Below the pieces are notes generated by a model that had not been told where the DNA came from, searched no databases, and worked only from the letters and a program-made list of their open reading frames with translations. A DNA stretch of 64,000 nucleotides, taken from Alphaproteobacteria bacterium. Its GTDB lineage: Bacteria; Pseudomonadota; Alphaproteobacteria; Sphingomonadales; Kordiimonadaceae. The stretch spans positions 62,001 through 126,000 of the forward strand of contig JAJFIS010000021.1 of assembly GCA_021774735.1 (NCBI GenBank), written 5' to 3'. Positions 1,357 to 7,175 of this stretch are shown here, one piece after another. The stretch's first letter is position 1, and each line of letters starts with the position of its first letter. Position numbers and translations under genes: made by a program.

Positions 1357-1695
1357 ATGGTGAGACCTCTCAAGCGTTTCTACTCAGCCTATAGCCGTGA
1401 TGCAATGCATCTATTTGGCTCGCTCATTCAGGCCGCGCGTAAGACACAAAAAATGTCAGAGCAAGAATTGGCTGACCGTACAGGGGTGTCTAGGGGCCTA
1501 ATTCGGCGTATTGAAGAAGGCGATATGAAATGTGAAGTGGGGGCAATTTTTGAAGCCGCCCATATTGTAGGCATCCAGTTATTTGATACGGGACCAAGCA
1601 GGCTTGCAAGCCAGATAAGGCAGGTTGAAGACAAGCTAACCTTGCTGCCAAAAGCCATTCACAAAAAGCCTAAGGTGATCAATGATGACTTCTAA
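1357..1695 (+). CDS. hipB: HipB-like XRE-family antitoxin
   Basis: This 112-residue protein has a helix-turn-helix at about residues 22-75 (SEQELADRTGVSRGLIRRIEEG), typical of XRE/Cro repressors. In HipBA modules HipB binds operator DNA and the HipA kinase, neutralising the kinase and repressing the operon. The 3' end overlaps hipA by 14 nt, implying translational coupling. A purine-rich ribosome site (AGAGAAG) precedes the ATG. The C-terminal tail is Lys-rich. The three phased sites just upstream support autoregulation. The role is inferred from the fold plus the hipA partner. Confidence 0.88.
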   Translation: MVRPLKRFYSAYSRDAMHLFGSLIQAARKTQKMSEQELADRTGVSRGLIRRIEEGDMKCEVGAIFEAAHIVGIQLFDTGPSRLASQIRQVEDKLTLLPKAIHKKPKVINDDF

Positions 1696-2944
1696 AAGCG
1701 ATTATACAGAAGCTTTTGTCTGGATTTGGCTGCCCGAGGCAACGAAGCCTGTGGTGGCTGGTAAGCTGGAACAAGACGGTGAGAATTTAGTTTTCGCCTA
1801 TGGTAAAAGTTACCTTGAACGAAAAGAGGCTATTCCCATCTATGGCCCTGAACTGCCACTACATGCGGGCACCATACCCCTGTTAAATGGGTTAACGGCA
1901 CCAAGCTGTATACGCGACGGCGCACCAGATGCTTGGGGCCAGCGTGTTATCATCAACCGTATAACAGGATTGAAGGGGAAAGCTGCTGGTGAAGTGGAAT
2001 TAAGCCTGCTTACCTATTTAATGGAATCAGGTTCAGACCGCATTGGTGCGCTAGACTTTCAAGCGTCACCAACAGAATATGTGTCACGGCAATCTCAAGC
2101 CACACCAATAGAAGAGCTTATGGCCTCCGCAAATTTAGTTGAGAAAGGCGTGCCATTATCCCCTGAATTAGGCCAAGCACTGCTTCACGGCAGCGCAATT
2201 GGTGGCGCACGTCCTAAAACGCTAATTGACGATAAAGAGACTAAATATATTGCCAAATTTTCCGCGAGCAACGACGCTTATAGCGTTGTGAAAGCTGAGT
2301 ATATCGCCATGAGACTTGCCGCAATAGCAGGTTTAAATGTTGCCCTTGTTAAGTTAACCCAAGCAGCGGGCAAGGATATATTACTCATTGAGCGGTTTGA
2401 CCGGATAGATACAGCGGAAGGTTGGAAGCGCAAAGCCGTTGTTTCCGCACTGACCATCCTAGAACTTGATGAAATGATGGCAAAATATGCCAGCTATGAA
2501 GAACTTGCAGAGATAATTCGAAAGCGCTTCACTGCGCCGAAAGAAACCCTGAAAGAGCTGTTTGGCCGCATGGTGTTTAATATTCTTTGTGGTAACACCG
2601 ATGACCATGCCAGAAATCACGCGGCTTTTTGGGATGGTAGAACCCTCACCCTCACGCCGGCCTATGATATTTGCCCTCAAGGCCGCGCAGGAGGTGAAGC
2701 AACTCAGGCCATGCTGCTGGTCGGACAAAACTGTTTTAGCCAATTGCGCGTCTGCATTGAAGCTGCAAGTCATTTCCATATTTCAGAAGATGATGCGCAT
2801 GCAATCATAAAACACCAAAAGTCCATCATAGAAGATAATTGGGATGCTGTTTGTAATGAAGCTCAATTAAGTGAAGTTGACCGCGCGCTGTTTTGGCGCC
2901 GTCAGTTTTTGAACCCCTATGCCTTTGAAGGGTTAGAGCATTGA
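1682..2944 (+). CDS. hipA: HipA-family serine/threonine kinase toxin
   Basis: The protein has 420 residues, close to the usual 400-440. Visible signatures are the HipA glycine-rich segment (GSAIGGARPKT, residues 170-180), the catalytic loop CGNTDDHARNH (303-313) and the metal-binding AYDICP (327-332). These match the two HipA domains that form a eukaryotic-like kinase fold. In E. coli HipA phosphorylates GltX and triggers persistence; the target here is unknown. Ser171 is a candidate autophosphorylation site by position. All catalytic motifs are intact, so the kinase is probably active. It is coupled to hipB upstream, and a repeat element follows 48 bp after its stop. Confidence 0.93.
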   Translation: MMTSKSDYTEAFVWIWLPEATKPVVAGKLEQDGENLVFAYGKSYLERKEAIPIYGPELPLHAGTIPLLNGLTAPSCIRDGAPDAWGQRVIINRITGLKGKAAGEVELSLLTYLMESGSDRIGALDFQASPTEYVSRQSQATPIEELMASANLVEKGVPLSPELGQALLHGSAIGGARPKTLIDDKETKYIAKFSASNDAYSVVKAEYIAMRLAAIAGLNVALVKLTQAAGKDILLIERFDRIDTAEGWKRKAVVSALTILELDEMMAKYASYEELAEIIRKRFTAPKETLKELFGRMVFNILCGNTDDHARNHAAFWDGRTLTLTPAYDICPQGRAGGEATQAMLLVGQNCFSQLRVCIEAASHFHISEDDAHAIIKHQKSIIEDNWDAVCNEAQLSEVDRALFWRRQFLNPYAFEGLEH

Positions 2945-2992
2945 CACTCTACATCTTTATATCCATAGAAAATTATGATGTGATCTAATGAT

Positions 2993-3050
2993 ATGAAAAA
3001 TGGTGCCCCCGAGGGAAATACATTGAACACTTTATAGGATGAATTATCAA
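2993..3050 (+). repeat. Repeat copy 0 (degenerate) of the module-associated small-ORF element
   Basis: This segment, 48 bp after the hipA stop, aligns with the start of the element seen at 3776, 4596 and 5898. It shares ATGAAAA, GGTGC and TTGAACACT, then GATGAATTA, with equal spacing from the start codon to TTGAAC as at 5898. Its reading frame is interrupted by TAG at 3035-3037 (LNTL-stop-DELS), and similarity fades after about 3050. It is the most decayed of four copies. It also contains a 12-nt match (3000-3011) to the tRNA-Leu 3' end. Confidence 0.6.
3000..3011 (+). other. Possible attachment-site half matching the tRNA-Leu 3' end
   Basis: ATGGTGCCCCCG occurs here and at 7089-7100, where it covers the last bases of the tRNA-Leu gene plus one flanking base, in the same orientation. 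Two of the next three bases also agree. Integrating elements often leave a direct repeat of a tRNA 3' end at their far boundary. The enclosed 4.1 kb holds higBA, parDE and both fic genes. There is no integrase in the segment, and the match is short, so this is a candidate only. Confidence 0.35.
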
Positions 3051-3113
3051 TTTGTAGCGCAACAAACAACAATTTCATCGACAATCAAAAATGTTGTGAG
3101 GTAAACTACATAT

Positions 3114-3405
3114 ATGATTAAGAGCTTTGCCGACAAACGCACCGAGCAAATATATAAAGGCAACAAGATCAAGCGGCTTGATGCAACTTTGCAAAAGAAA
3201 GCTTTGCGGTGGCTACGCTATATTGATGTAGCAAATAAGCTAGATGACTTGCGTGTCCCTCCTTTCCAATAAGCTGGAAAAGAAAGAAGGTGATTTGCAA
3301 GATTTTTACGCCATTTGGGTTAATACACAATGGCGTATCATATTTCGGTGGCGTGATGGTGATGCCGATGAGGTGCTATCACTAGCAGGAGATGAAAATG
3401 CATAA
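3114..3405 (+). pseudogene. higB: HigB/RelE-family toxin broken by a one-base frameshift
   Basis: From the ATG at 3114 the frame reads a HigB-like N-terminus (MIKSFADKRTEQIYKG, then a DLRVPP motif) but stops at TAA 3270-3272. Moving one base within the TTT run at 3263-3265 restores the family sequence: NKLEKKEGDLQDFYAIWVN, then TQWRIIFRWRDGDADEV, ending at 3405. HigB toxins are ribosome-dependent mRNA interferases of about 92 residues, and the joined product would fit (about 96). The lesion is one extra T. It could be a true inactivating mutation or a sequencing error. The antitoxin downstream is intact and overlaps the 3' end. Confidence 0.85.
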
Positions 3406-3706
3406 TGATAAAATTGAGATTGAAAATATCGGCGTCATGCTGAAAGAAGACTTTCTTGATGATCTGAACATCAAGCCTGGTACTTTTGCTAAAGCCATAG
3501 GTGTTGACCGCGCGGCAATTAAAAATATCATTGACGGCAAGCGCGCTATTACGGCTGATATGTCTCTACGTTTTGGTCTGTTTTTTGGTATGAGCGCAGG
3601 GTTTTGGCTCAGCCTGCAAAAAGACTATGATTTACGGATCGCTAAACGTGAAAAGCTAGCTGAGTTCAAAAATATTATTCGCCCCTATGAAACTATTCGC
3701 GCGTAA
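3398..3706 (+). CDS. higA: HigA-like XRE-family antitoxin
   Basis: The 102-residue product has the HigA pattern: a short N-terminus, LKEDFLDDLNIKPGTFAKAI, a helix-turn-helix (GVDRAAIKNIIDGKRAITADM) and RFGLFFGMSAGFWLSLQ. HigA neutralises HigB and represses the operon. ATG 3398 is preferred because AGGAG at 3387-3391 lies 6 nt upstream; the ATG at 3392 directly abuts it. The gene overlaps the end of the broken higB. With the toxin disrupted it may persist as a stand-alone regulator or as an antidote against related toxins. Confidence 0.9.
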   Translation: MHNDKIEIENIGVMLKEDFLDDLNIKPGTFAKAIGVDRAAIKNIIDGKRAITADMSLRFGLFFGMSAGFWLSLQKDYDLRIAKREKLAEFKNIIRPYETIRA

Positions 3707-3716
3707 TCATAAAATG

Positions 3717-3883
3717 AAGCGCCTAACATTTCAAAAATAACGCACTCCTCGTAGGGGAATTAATGTCATTTTCTGATGGAAAGGGGTGCGCACAGGCGTA
3801 GAAAGTTGAACATATTGTTTGACGAATTCTCTGGCTGGGATGAGGAATTGAAAAGTACCTCGATTCATATCCCAGAACCGTAA
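3717..3883 (+). repeat. Repeat copy 1 of the module-associated small-ORF element
   Basis: It begins about 10 bp after higA. The left part carries a short C-rich/G-rich inverted segment (CTCCTCGTAGGGGAA). The right part is an uninterrupted 35-codon ORF (3776-3883) containing LNILFDEFSGWDEELKSTSI. The same protein pattern is found at 4606-4716 and 5898-6017, with many third-base differences and a stop codon at the matching place. A GTG-initiated frame aligned with the other copies would be interrupted here, so this copy may be partly decayed. Function unknown. Confidence 0.65.
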
Positions 3884-3984
3884 CAACCGAAGTTGAAAAT
3901 AATCAATTACTTAATTTTATTGGTTTGGTTACGAATATGATATATACTCATATATAGCAAATATGAATAAATGGAGTGCATATT

Positions 3985-4233
3985 ATGGCAACAACAAGTT
4001 TAAGCCTTGGTGAACATTGGGAAGTGTTTATCAAAAATGAAGTTACTAGTGGACGCTATGGAACTGCTAGCGAGGTTATTCGTGATGCCCTTCGTGATAT
4101 GGAAGAAAAAAAGAGTAAACTTGAAGCCTTACAGGCGCATCTCTCGGAAGGCGCGCGACAAGCGAGACAGGGTAAATTTGTTGAGAATTATTCAATTGAT
4201 AGCGTGATAGCAGAATTGGAAGCTACAGAGTGA
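3985..4233 (+). CDS. parD: ParD-family antitoxin
   Basis: The 82-residue protein has an N-terminal ribbon-helix-helix (TSLSLGEHWEVFIKNEV, then SGRYGTASEVIRDALRDMEE), followed by a flexible toxin-binding tail. ParD binds ParE toxin and represses its operon. ATG 3985 is chosen because TGGAG (3972-3976) is 8 nt upstream; a GTG at 3976 lies within that ribosome site. The upstream AT-rich stretch at about 3936-3960 contains ATATA-type inverted arms that could be its operator. It overlaps the parE remnant by 4 nt. Confidence 0.92.
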   Translation: MATTSLSLGEHWEVFIKNEVTSGRYGTASEVIRDALRDMEEKKSKLEALQAHLSEGARQARQGKFVENYSIDSVIAELEATE

Positions 4234-4532
4234 GCCTATAAGTTCGCATTACGCCCCGTGCCTATGAAGACCTGAAAAATATAGGCCGTTACACAATACA
4301 GGCTTGGGGAAAAGAGCAGCGGAACAAATACCTACATGCTTTAGATCAGCGTTTTAACTGGATTGCAGAAAACCCAAGAATGGGAAAACACCGTACAGAT
4401 ATTCAGGAAGGCTATTATAGCTTTCCTCACGGGTCGCATGTTATTTTCTGTCTGATCAACAATACTACTATTGATATCATTGGCATTCCACATAAGGAAA
4501 TGGATATCGTCAATTATTTTGATACTACTTAA
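4230..4532 (+). pseudogene. parE: ParE-family toxin with a stop at codon 4 or a lost start
   Basis: The frame opened by GTG 4230 (overlapping the parD stop) reads V-S-L-stop (TAA 4239-4241). It then continues without interruption as a full ParE domain: VRITPRAYEDLKNIGRYTIQ, AWGKEQRNKYLHALDQRF, IAENPRMGKHRTDIQEGYYS, HVIFCLINNTTIDIIGIPHK. Apart from codon 4 it is a normal-length ParE (about 100 residues), a gyrase-poisoning toxin family. No in-frame ATG or GTG follows the stop until inside the fold, so expression would need an ATT or other rare start. Either a point mutation killed the toxin or an unusual start is used. Confidence 0.8.
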
Positions 4533-4554
4533 AAGAATAACGTTCATTTCCAAA

Positions 4555-4716
4555 ACAAGCCGATCCCCCCGAAGGGGAACTAATATCATGTTATTATGAA
4601 AAAGGGTGCGCACAGACGTAGAAAAGTTGCATACTTTGTTTGACGAACTCTCGGGCTGGCAAGAGATATTGCAAGATACTTCTATCAACAAGATGGATTT
4701 TGACCCTAGACCATGA
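4555..4716 (+). repeat. Repeat copy 2 of the module-associated small-ORF element
   Basis: This starts about 23 bp after the parE frame. The left part carries CCCCCCGAAGGGG (4565-4577), a potential small hairpin. The right part, read from GTG 4606, encodes VRTDVEKLHTLFDELSG, then WQEILQDTSINK, ending at 4714-4716. This aligns residue for residue with the copy at 5898-6017. The upstream ATG at 4596 is one base out of frame with it. Synonymous differences between copies (for example CTC/TTA for Leu) point to past selection on the peptide. Confidence 0.65.
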
Positions 4717-4730
4717 CGATTAAATTAACT

Positions 4731-4800
4731 GGCTAATACCCGGCTAGTTTATGGCTTATGGGGGCTTGCTTCTCGGCTCATAATTGGCTAATTTATGGCT
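4731..4800 (+). repeat. Seven GGCT motifs with 11-bp periodicity upstream of fic
   Basis: GGCT begins at 4731, 4742, 4753, 4763, 4775, 4786 and 4797, giving spacings of 11, 11, 10, 12, 11 and 11 bp. The units approximate GGCTAATTTAT; units two and six are nearly identical. The array runs into the start codon of the Fic gene. Motifs repeated once per helical turn suggest cooperative binding of a protein along one DNA face, possibly the winged-helix tail of the Fic protein itself. Alternatively it is a degenerate minisatellite. Confidence 0.65.
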
Positions 4801-5844
4801 ATGACATGGCAACCACATTATACTATATCCGACAAGCTTCTCTTCACCATCCGTGAAATAGGGCAGTCGATTGGCGAGATTAAAAGCTTCTCGTTAACAG
4901 GCAAAGCGTTGGCAAAATTAGAGCTGCAAGCCAGAGAATTATCTGCCTTTGCTTCGACCAGCATTGAAGGTAACCCCTTGGCACTCACAGATGTGAAACA
5001 CCTGCTGAAAAATAAAAAAGAGCATATTCGCGACACAGAGCGTGAAGTCTTGAACTATAATAAAGCGCTGCAAAATTTACATGCGGTTATGAGCGCAGGA
5101 AAATTTAAACTTAATATTGCTACCCTAGAAAAAATCCAGAAACAGGTCGTAGCAGGACTGATGGACAGTCCAGTTGATATCGGCCATCTCCGCCAAGCAC
5201 CGGTGGTTATACGCAATCCACGCAAAGTAGATGAGTTTGTTTTTTTGCCGCCCGATGCAATCGATGTCAGGAATTTAACGCAAGCAATGTTTGATTTTAT
5301 CAATGCTTATATAGGTAAAATCGATCCGATTATCCTCGCCGGATTATTTCACCGCCAGTGCGTCATCATCCACCCCTTTATGGATGGCAATGGGCGTACC
5401 ACGCGCCTGCTGACTACCGCTATTCTTGGTCGCGGCGGCCTTGACCTGTTTGAAATTTTTAGTTTTGAGAATTATTACAATCAGAATATCAGCCGCTACT
5501 TTAAGGCTGTTGGCCTGCAGGGAGACTATTATGACTTAAAGGATGAAATTGATTTCTCTAATTGGCTCGAATATTTTGCAGATGGTATTTTGGATGAGCT
5601 TCGCCGTGTAGCCAAAGCCCTGCCCGATGCGCAAGCCCCCAAGCCGCGCCTTGAGCCTCACCATAAGAAGTTGCTAGACTATATCACCGAACAAGGCAGT
5701 ATCAGCCAACGTGAATATAGCCAAATTTCTAGCCGCAGCTTAGCATCCAGAAAACTCGACCTTGAGAAATTACTCGACCTTAAACTCATAGAGAGTGTCG
5801 GCAGCGGTCGCGGTACCTACTATATTCGCAAGCAACAATCATAG
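4795..5844 (+). CDS. Fic-family AMP-transferase, class II with N-terminal inhibitory helix and C-terminal winged helix
   Basis: The 349-residue protein carries the Fic core HPFMDGNGRTTR (residues 193-204), with catalytic His193 and the phosphate-binding loop intact. An inhibitory motif STSIEG (54-59) fits (S/T)xxxE(G/N) placed N-terminal to the core, which defines class II self-inhibited Fic proteins. The last 70 residues look like a winged helix (KKLLDYITEQGSISQREYSQ, ending GSGRGTYYIRKQ). Fic enzymes transfer AMP or similar groups to target hydroxyls; the target here is unknown. ATG 4795 and ATG 4801 are both possible starts, and neither has a strong ribosome site. Confidence 0.9.
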   Translation: MAMTWQPHYTISDKLLFTIREIGQSIGEIKSFSLTGKALAKLELQARELSAFASTSIEGNPLALTDVKHLLKNKKEHIRDTEREVLNYNKALQNLHAVMSAGKFKLNIATLEKIQKQVVAGLMDSPVDIGHLRQAPVVIRNPRKVDEFVFLPPDAIDVRNLTQAMFDFINAYIGKIDPIILAGLFHRQCVIIHPFMDGNGRTTRLLTTAILGRGGLDLFEIFSFENYYNQNISRYFKAVGLQGDYYDLKDEIDFSNWLEYFADGILDELRRVAKALPDAQAPKPRLEPHHKKLLDYITEQGSISQREYSQISSRSLASRKLDLEKLLDLKLIESVGSGRGTYYIRKQQS

Positions 5845-5849
5845 CCCCA

Positions 5850-6017
5850 AATAAAAACAGCCTAAAGCCCCTGATGGGGACGCGACCACATGTTATTATG
5901 AAAATGGTGCGCTTTGAGCGAGATAGCTTGAACACTGTATTTGATGAATTAGCAAGGTGGGAAGAGGTGTTGAAGGATACTTCTGTAAGCAAAAAAGATA
6001 ATGACCATGAGCCATGA
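5850..6017 (+). repeat. Repeat copy 3 of the module-associated small-ORF element (intact 39-codon ORF)
   Basis: It starts directly after the fic stop. The left part has GCCCCTGATGGGGAC (5867-5881), a potential hairpin like that at 4565. The ORF at 5898-6017 starts at ATG in the context TTATTATGAAAA, shared with copy 2. It reads MKMVRFERDSLNTVFDELA, then RWEEVLKDTSVSK, and ends DNDHEP-stop. This is the best-preserved copy. No known family was recognised. The reverse strand also has an open frame, but the aligned stop codons favour plus-strand coding. Confidence 0.65.
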
Positions 6018-6048
6018 TTTTTGTGCAGAACTGCTATTCTTTAATTGA

Positions 6049-6078
6049 TTTACAAAATCCTCCTACCCAATGTATAAT
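6049..6078 (+). promoter_or_regulatory. Predicted sigma-70 promoter of the antitoxin-fic pair
   Basis: TTTACA (6049-6054) and a perfect TATAAT (6073-6078) are separated by 18 bp, with TG directly before the -10. Transcription would start near 6085, upstream of ATG 6113. This supports the short form of the antitoxin over the longer open frame that begins at 6014. Confidence 0.6.
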
Positions 6079-6112
6079 GATACTATATCGTGTTAACACC
6101 TGGATTTATCAG

Positions 6113-6289
6113 ATGAGTAATCAAACCAAAAATAACAACTTTATCTACACGCAAGGTGTAGCCAACCTGGAATTGGAGGGTATGGAGTTGACCAGCGAAC
6201 AACACAACATTGCCCGTAATTATCAATCTGGTAAACTAACGCACCGTGAACTCATTGCCGAAGCGTTGAAATATGCAAGATCAGAGTAA
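6113..6289 (+). CDS. VbhA/YhfG-like antitoxin of a class I Fic toxin
   Basis: This 58-residue protein (MSNQTKNNNFIYTQGVANLE...) precedes and overlaps a class I Fic gene by 17 nt. It contains NLELEG (18-23), matching the Fic inhibitory motif (S/T)xxxE(G/N) except that Asn replaces Ser/Thr. Glu22 would be the residue that blocks productive ATP binding in the partner. The C-terminal LTHRELIAEALKYARSE resembles the tail of VbhA-type antitoxins. ATG 6113 lies downstream of the predicted promoter; no good ribosome site is seen. Assignment rests on motif, size and context. Confidence 0.78.
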   Translation: MSNQTKNNNFIYTQGVANLELEGMELTSEQHNIARNYQSGKLTHRELIAEALKYARSE

Positions 6290-6881
6290 AGACCACGACA
6301 AATATTTTAGTCCGAAACACGATACATATTTAGATCAGAAAACCAATGTTCTGAAAAACATTCCGAACCTGCAAAGCTGCATTGAACTGGAGAAATTTGA
6401 AGAAATCATTTTTCAGGCACGCTTTGCCGAGGCCACGTCTTATATTTCAAAAGCCGCGGCCATTGGCCTGAAAGAATGGCAGGAAATTCATAAAATCTGT
6501 TTTGAAGATATCTACATATGGGCCGGTAAATTACGGACGATCCGCATCGCCAAAGGAAATACTGTCTTTGCTTATCCGGAAGCAATTGAAGGCGAAGCGC
6601 AGCGCATATTTGATGAAATCAATGCCAAATCAAACAAGAAGGCCTTAACGTTTGAAGAAACAGCAAAATATTTTGCAGATATTAATGTCCTGCACCCGTT
6701 CAGAGAAGGCAATGGCCGAACACAGCGAATATTATTTAGTGAATCATTCAGCCGCATGGGTGTGACAGTGGACTATACGCTCACCTCACAAGAGGAAATG
6801 ATTGCGTCCATGGTTGAGGGCTATAAAACCAACTATGCACCCGTGATCAAGCTTTTCAGGAAAATAGCTAAAGAGAATTGA
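6273..6881 (+). CDS. Class I Fic/Doc-type toxin (VbhT-like AMP-transferase)
   Basis: The 202-residue protein is a minimal Fic domain with WAGKLRTIRIAKGNT (residues 83-97, the target-docking flap) and the active-site motif HPFREGNGRTQR (141-152), including catalytic His141. Its inhibitor is supplied in trans by the small gene it overlaps, the arrangement called class I. VbhT and relatives adenylylate GyrB and ParE topoisomerase subunits; the target here is inferred only by similarity. No C-terminal secretion or BID domain is present. All motifs are intact, in contrast to the two broken toxins upstream. Confidence 0.9.
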   Translation: MQDQSKDHDKYFSPKHDTYLDQKTNVLKNIPNLQSCIELEKFEEIIFQARFAEATSYISKAAAIGLKEWQEIHKICFEDIYIWAGKLRTIRIAKGNTVFAYPEAIEGEAQRIFDEINAKSNKKALTFEETAKYFADINVLHPFREGNGRTQRILFSESFSRMGVTVDYTLTSQEEMIASMVEGYKTNYAPVIKLFRKIAKEN

Positions 6882-7089: not shown

Positions 7090-7175
7090 TGGTGCCCCCG
7101 GGGAGAATCGAACTCCCACTTCCAAAGGAAACGGGATTTTGAATCCCGCGCGTCTACCAATTCCGCCACAGGGGC
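7090..7175 (-). tRNA. tRNA-Leu (anticodon CAA)
   Basis: The reverse strand folds as a class II tRNA of 86 nt. The acceptor is GCCCCTG paired with CGGGGGC, then A and an encoded CCA. The anticodon stem CGGGA/TCCCG encloses loop TTCAAAA, giving anticodon CAA, which reads UUG leucine codons. A long variable arm (TTTCCTTTGGAAGT) and a T arm GGGAG-TTCGATT-CTCCC are present. The 3' end points toward the toxin-antitoxin island, and its last bases recur at 3000-3011. Confidence 0.97.

Follow-up and report, generated by a model that had tools for sequence, protein, structure and literature searches.

Tandem 11-bp repeats at a class II fic promoter co-vary with the predicted recognition helix of the Fic protein and are a candidate autoregulatory operator

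The promoter of a class II fic gene from a Kordiimonadaceae bacterium (Alphaproteobacteria, Sphingomonadales) carries an array of GGCT motifs in two triplets with an 11-bp step, which quite probably is an operator at which the Fic protein assembles head to tail and represses its own gene. The array lies in a 64,000-nucleotide stretch of GenBank assembly GCA_021774735.1 (contig JAJFIS010000021.1, positions 62,001 to 126,000, forward strand), hereafter the window. Similar arrays stand at homologous fic genes in several phyla, and one base of the repeated core co-varies with residue 318 of Fic. What was computed directly comprises the array and its conservation, the promoter-like sequence that it overlaps, and the covariation between residue and base.

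An earlier note on this DNA had described seven GGCT motifs, spaced 11, 11, 10, 12, 11 and 11 bp, running into the start codon of the fic gene. We found the motifs at exactly the seven positions claimed (4731, 4742, 4753, 4763, 4775, 4786 and 4797). In a survey of all 256 tetranucleotides at periods 8-15 across the window, GGCT was the only one to form a chain longer than four, while the longest GGCT chain was 2-3 in Markov simulations of the window and never exceeded four when the local 130 bp were simulated 20,000 times. Because no other tetranucleotide formed such a chain and the simulations never came near seven, the array is real and its periodicity, which the note had proposed to compare with shuffled sequence, is far above chance (a chain of seven versus a simulated maximum of four). 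The array was not listed by Tandem Repeats Finder, because its units have only about 4-6 bases in common. The 11-bp periodicity stood, but the reading of seven units at 10-12 bp did not: the layout is two triplets, each stepping by exactly 11 bp (4731/4742/4753 and 4775/4786/4797), separated by a gap of 22 bp, or two turns, and lying in the same helical phase, which gives spacings of 11, 11, 22, 11 and 11 bp. We rejected the GGCT at 4763 as a true unit; it sits in a G run beside the -35 hexamer, out of phase by 1 bp, has no counterpart in close homologues, and is probably a chance occurrence in that run.

The conserved fic start codon is the ATG at 4801 (MTW, MSW, MKW and similar starts in homologues), and the ATG at 4795, which homologues do not share, was rejected. 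The array is thus upstream of the class II fic gene, as had been claimed, but all of its units lie 5' of the gene rather than running into the coding region. It encloses a sigma-70-like promoter (TTGCTT-17-TAATTT), and since this ends 6 nt before ATG 4801, the fic mRNA is probably leaderless. Among the 106 closest family members, an embedded promoter of the form TTG..-17-TATAAT was found in 90, versus about 11 in shuffles, and the spacer was 17 bp in 81 of these 90. In 86 members the -10 hexamer kept a constant distance from the second core, and in 66 it lay 6-10 nt from the ATG. Outside the GGCT clade the consensus is TTGacAaTCGtCTAatAaTCGtCTAtaATtcGnCTAta-ATG, in which operator, promoter and start codon fit in about 45 bp.

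The fic subfamily is rare in the class of the window (1 of 385 genomes at E 1e-40) and sampling at the level of Alphaproteobacteria seldom finds it; therefore, sampling was shifted to Patescibacteria, Chloroflexi, Oligoflexia and Elusimicrobiota. In L085 (81%) and L009 (67%), the closest relatives, the GGCT positions relative to the ATG (-70/-59/-48 and -26/-15/-4) match those of the window; L006 has its distal triplet shifted upstream by 1 bp, and one distal unit is missing from L005 and from L008. Farther afield, about three 11-bp direct repeats occupy the same place at homologous fic genes of Proteobacteria and the four groups just named, with clade-specific units: GGCTAATTTAT in Proteobacteria, CGTCTATAATT or CGACTATAATT in Patescibacteria and Chloroflexi, GTGAAAGAATA in Oligoflexia, TTGACAATTAG or ACTTTATGTAA in Elusimicrobiota, and AACGGCATAAT in locus L203. 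Within one promoter all copies of the unit change together, which is what a common reader enforces.

These arrays are also evident statistically. The upstream regions of homologues from the genome scan showed period 11 with harmonics at 22 and 33, with z scores of 15.4, 26.7 and 12.4 for identity tiers of at least 57%, 44-51% and at most 31%, respectively, and 11 was the best single period in 64 of 77 loci. A three-copy score of at least 0.7 was reached by 69% of 163 family promoters and 87% of the 106 closest, versus 0 of 208 neighbouring genes in the same loci, so that the array which the earlier note had suggested seeking at homologous fic genes is present across phyla. In 373 genomes of one Patescibacteria class, the exact pattern of three CGTCTA units had 11 matches, 10 of them directly upstream of this fic, and the reversed-pattern control had none. 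In the source genome, the exact GGCT triple has a single match besides the one at fic, and a search of that genome with the GGCT pattern for a trans regulon gave no convincing further site. Viral contigs and phage records yielded only distant, partial relatives. Furthermore, distant plasmid-borne genes for Fic proteins with a winged helix-turn-helix domain (25-28% identity; L297, L290, L298, L292 and L299) carry, before the start codon, direct repeats that step by 10 bp (z of 9.9 at period 10), TCGGGTATAA occurring three times in L297 and GGCTA-type repeats in L290. Because these related arrays occur in such distant genes, a repeat at every helical turn may be a more general trait of Fic proteins that carry a winged-helix domain.

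The Fic protein of the window has both signatures of class II Fic proteins, the active-site motif HPFx(D/E)GN(G/K)R as HPFMDGNGR and the inhibitory helix (S/T)xxxE(G/N) as STSIEG, and the structures closest to its AlphaFold2 model are 4rgl, CbFic2 and SoFic. The C-terminal winged-helix domain that had been read from the sequence was borne out by this model at residues 286-343, as helices 286-298, 303-309 and 314-326 followed by two wing strands. Residue 318 sits in the predicted recognition helix. In promoters carrying the core CGxCTA, this residue goes with base x: A, S, N, Y or H with T; T, I, V or R with A (sometimes C or G); and K with G. When the base was scored as T or not T (56 to 48), all 104 loci were consistent with zero exceptions, one further locus with three different bases having been excluded from this table. 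Of all variable columns, residue 318 had the highest mutual information with the base (1.36 bits versus 0.81 for the next), and it still ranked first when the K clade was left out. On a tree built from the Fic domain alone (residues 1-272), the residue and base traits each changed 14 times, giving 14 independent pairs when all branches of the best tree are counted. On well-supported branches of the careful tree, 8 of 8 independent pairs agreed (sign test, p = 0.0078), whereas a quick tree had only 2 supported pairs.

We infer from these patterns that Fic would bind the array cooperatively and repress the fic promoter, the repression being suggested by the covariation only. Each 11-bp unit (core CGGCTA in the window) would bind one C-terminal winged helix, with helix 314-326 inserted in the major groove and residue 318 reading the third base of the core. 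As the units recur every 11 bp in one direction, the protomers would be arranged head to tail along a single DNA face, one per 11 bp. Direct repeats about one helical turn apart are a feature of winged-helix proteins that bind in this BldC/Xis-like mode, and the step found here is exactly 11 bp. The winged helices of lambda Xis, a small MerR-like protein without an enzyme domain, line up head to tail on such repeats. The proximal triplet would cover the spacer, the -10 hexamer and the start region and the distal one would lie just upstream of the -35 hexamer, so that an occupied array should exclude RNA polymerase and, by negative feedback, keep a potentially toxic enzyme low. The possibility of autoregulation by Fic, raised in the earlier note, is therefore supported by strong, though indirect, evidence, also as regards binding on a single DNA face, in that every refutation that could be attempted by computer failed.

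Other explanations of the repeats were weighed against autorepression. That the periodicity arose by chance in an AT-rich promoter has a practically negligible probability; we found no point in its favor, and it is refuted by the period-11 statistics of the homologues and the frequency of arrays in family promoters compared to neighbouring genes, along with the tetranucleotide survey and the simulations. An element without a protein reader, such as an iteron, a recombination site or a leader RNA structure, would also fit direct repeats of about one helical turn, as iterons have these, and fic does lie in a patchwork of toxin-antitoxin genes and repeats next to a tRNA-Leu gene. However, with the promoter inside the array and the start codon at its end, little or no leader RNA is left, and the array co-varies with a recognition helix, which makes such an element very improbable. 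A regulator encoded elsewhere might instead bind the repeats, with Fic merely the regulated gene, as could be suggested by an orphan CGTCTA array before a different gene in genome G724 and, in G012, by an orphan GGCT triple that precedes another fic. We consider this improbable, since the repeat base tracks one Fic residue better than any other column, the fic family occurs in unrelated genomes of many phyla, and all but one of the 11 CGTCTA arrays in one class stand at fic.

It is also rather unlikely that Fic binds as symmetric dimers covering two units each, in the manner of CccR, with the 11-bp direct spacing merely a common promoter spacing. A CccR dimer binds an inverted repeat with a 26-bp spacer (PMC9755527), CbFic2 dimerises (PMC10628234), and the third unit is often inverted in Chloroflexi homologues (L187-L194), which produces a mixed direct and inverted array; however, most loci have all three units in one orientation at exactly 11 bp, even for units outside the promoter hexamers. 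The dimers reported for CccR and CbFic2 and the inverted operator of CccR also count against head-to-tail autorepression itself, as do several of our own results. The inverted third copies in some Chloroflexi show that head-to-tail order is not kept strictly everywhere. Far family members (score 190-300) pass the array threshold in only 16% of cases, partly because of 10- or 12-bp steps, and an insertion has displaced the array upstream in a few Patescibacteria. The covariation includes only 8 switches on well-supported branches, and the residue classes were grouped after the data were seen, although this does not apply to the column ranking. Operator binding and expression control, finally, are predictions.

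Autorepression by a Fic protein is already known. CccR of Yersinia pseudotuberculosis, a class II Fic protein with a C-terminal helix-turn-helix domain, was shown by electrophoretic mobility shift, footprinting and lacZ assays to repress its own promoter by binding near the -35 and -10 boxes (PMC9755527). The window Fic is likewise a class II protein with a C-terminal DNA-binding domain. However, the CccR operator is the widely spaced inverted repeat AGATAATCAT-N26-ATGATAATCT, bound by a dimer (PMC9755527), whereas the window fic has direct 11-bp repeats in two triplets, a probably leaderless promoter, and a residue-base link that extends across phyla. SoFic of Shewanella, a stand-alone anti-phage Fic protein, is also class II with a C-terminal winged helix, and its DNA binding was stated as not demonstrated (PMC10628234). 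The window Fic matched the PADLOC SoFic model over its full length (residues 11-344, E 1.1e-39) but scored 53.9 bits against a cut-off of 550 with the NCBIfam SoFic equivalog NF046030; judged from these scores, it is a relative of SoFic, not SoFic itself. CbFic2 of Coxiella burnetii, a class II Fic with a DeoR-type winged helix-turn-helix, binds DNA, and its AMPylation and deAMPylation respond to DNA (PMC10628234). It matches the window Fic in structure (8cil) but differs in having a DUF4172 N-terminus and was tested with random DNA only; the terms searched in that paper (PMC10628234) gave no CbFic2 operator. The winged helices of Streptomyces BldC assemble in head-to-tail order where direct repeats are spaced by roughly one helical turn, but BldC is a small MerR-like protein without an enzyme domain and its repeat is 9 bp (PMC5859096). 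Among open-licence PubMed Central papers, no description of a tandem fic array was found, and the tandem architecture and the residue-to-base link appear to be new. A C-terminal winged helix with a largely unexplained role is found in many bacterial Fic proteins; for this family, which spans many phyla, the protein's own promoter as a predicted target, exact sites and a candidate base-setting residue can now be named. This makes the question directly testable, and the matched protein-operator pairs form a natural series.

More speculatively, and by analogy with the effect of DNA on CbFic2, binding on the array might also shift the balance between AMPylase and deAMPylase activity. It is conceivable, though doubtful, that the tandem operator is an allosteric platform as well, on which in-line Fic protomers would have their AMPylase/deAMPylase state set, making expression and enzyme control one switch; release of Fic, e.g. 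by DNA changes in phage attack, would then cause derepression and free a toxic enzyme. If so, this switch would also act in trans, on the orphan arrays that stand at other genes.

The two orphan arrays lie away from this fic. At L289 1501-1540, a perfect three-unit CGTCTA promoter array precedes an unrelated 295-amino-acid gene (1535-2422) beside HepT/MntA-like genes; at E 1e-50 that genome lacks this fic. At L108 792-820, a GGCT triple with an 11-bp step and no matching fic lies upstream of a different, DUF4172-like fic gene. Both may be relics or trans targets.

Table. Coordinates of the fic gene, its promoter and the repeat array in the window.
Feature	Position	Strand	Remarks
Distal operator triplet, GGCTAATACCC-GGCTAGTTTAT-GGCT, 11-bp step (putative)	4731..4756	+	upstream of -35; recurs at -70/-59/-48 in L085 and L009, 1 bp shifted in L006
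Seventh GGCT	4763..4766	+	off phase, unconserved; -38 position seen only in L001 (the window)
-35-like hexamer TTGCTT	4766..4771	+	close homologues have TTGnnn at the same offset
Proximal operator triplet, GGCTCATAATT-GGCTAATTTAT-GGCT (putative)	4775..4800	+	overlaps spacer, -10 and start region; at -26/-15/-4 in nearly all close homologues
-10-like hexamer TAATTT	4789..4794	+	17 bp after -35; 6 nt before ATG
fic gene, 347 amino acids, class II Fic with C-terminal winged helix	4801..5844	+	start corrected from 4795
Class II inhibitory helix motif STSIEG, residues 52-57	4954..4971	+	T53, E56 and G57 invariant in 51 homologues
Fic active-site motif HPFMDGNGR, residues 191-199	5371..5397	+	invariant columns; Pfam PF02661, E 1.9e-14
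C-terminal winged helix-turn-helix domain, residues 286-343	5656..5829	+	AlphaFold2 model, mean predicted local distance difference test score (pLDDT) 91
Predicted recognition helix, residues 314-326, LASRKLDLEKLLD	5740..5778	+	AlphaFold2 model
K318 codon	5752..5754	+	K318 co-varies with the variable base of the operator core CGxCTA

The fic gene belongs to a run of toxin-antitoxin genes on one strand (1357-6881), which comprises a helix-turn-helix antitoxin gene with hipA, a higA-like antitoxin gene for which no toxin was listed, parD and a parE-like frame, the fic described here, and another fic, of the VbhT/Fic type (PADLOC PDC-S04), and which ends near a tRNA-Leu gene (7090-7175). The parE-like frame (4229-4532) has a TAA stop a few codons past its expected GTG start, which overlaps the parD stop; because of this early stop, the toxin gene may be inactive or start downstream. 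Successive modules are followed by an element of about 150 bp (3732-3890, 4552-4715 and 5854-6018, and more weakly 3000-3050), possibly a cassette or an insertion relic. Two copies of the element keep open a peptide of about 36 amino acids (VR..L.T.FDEL..W.E.L.DTS), which recurs immediately upstream of the fic homologue in G077 (L275).
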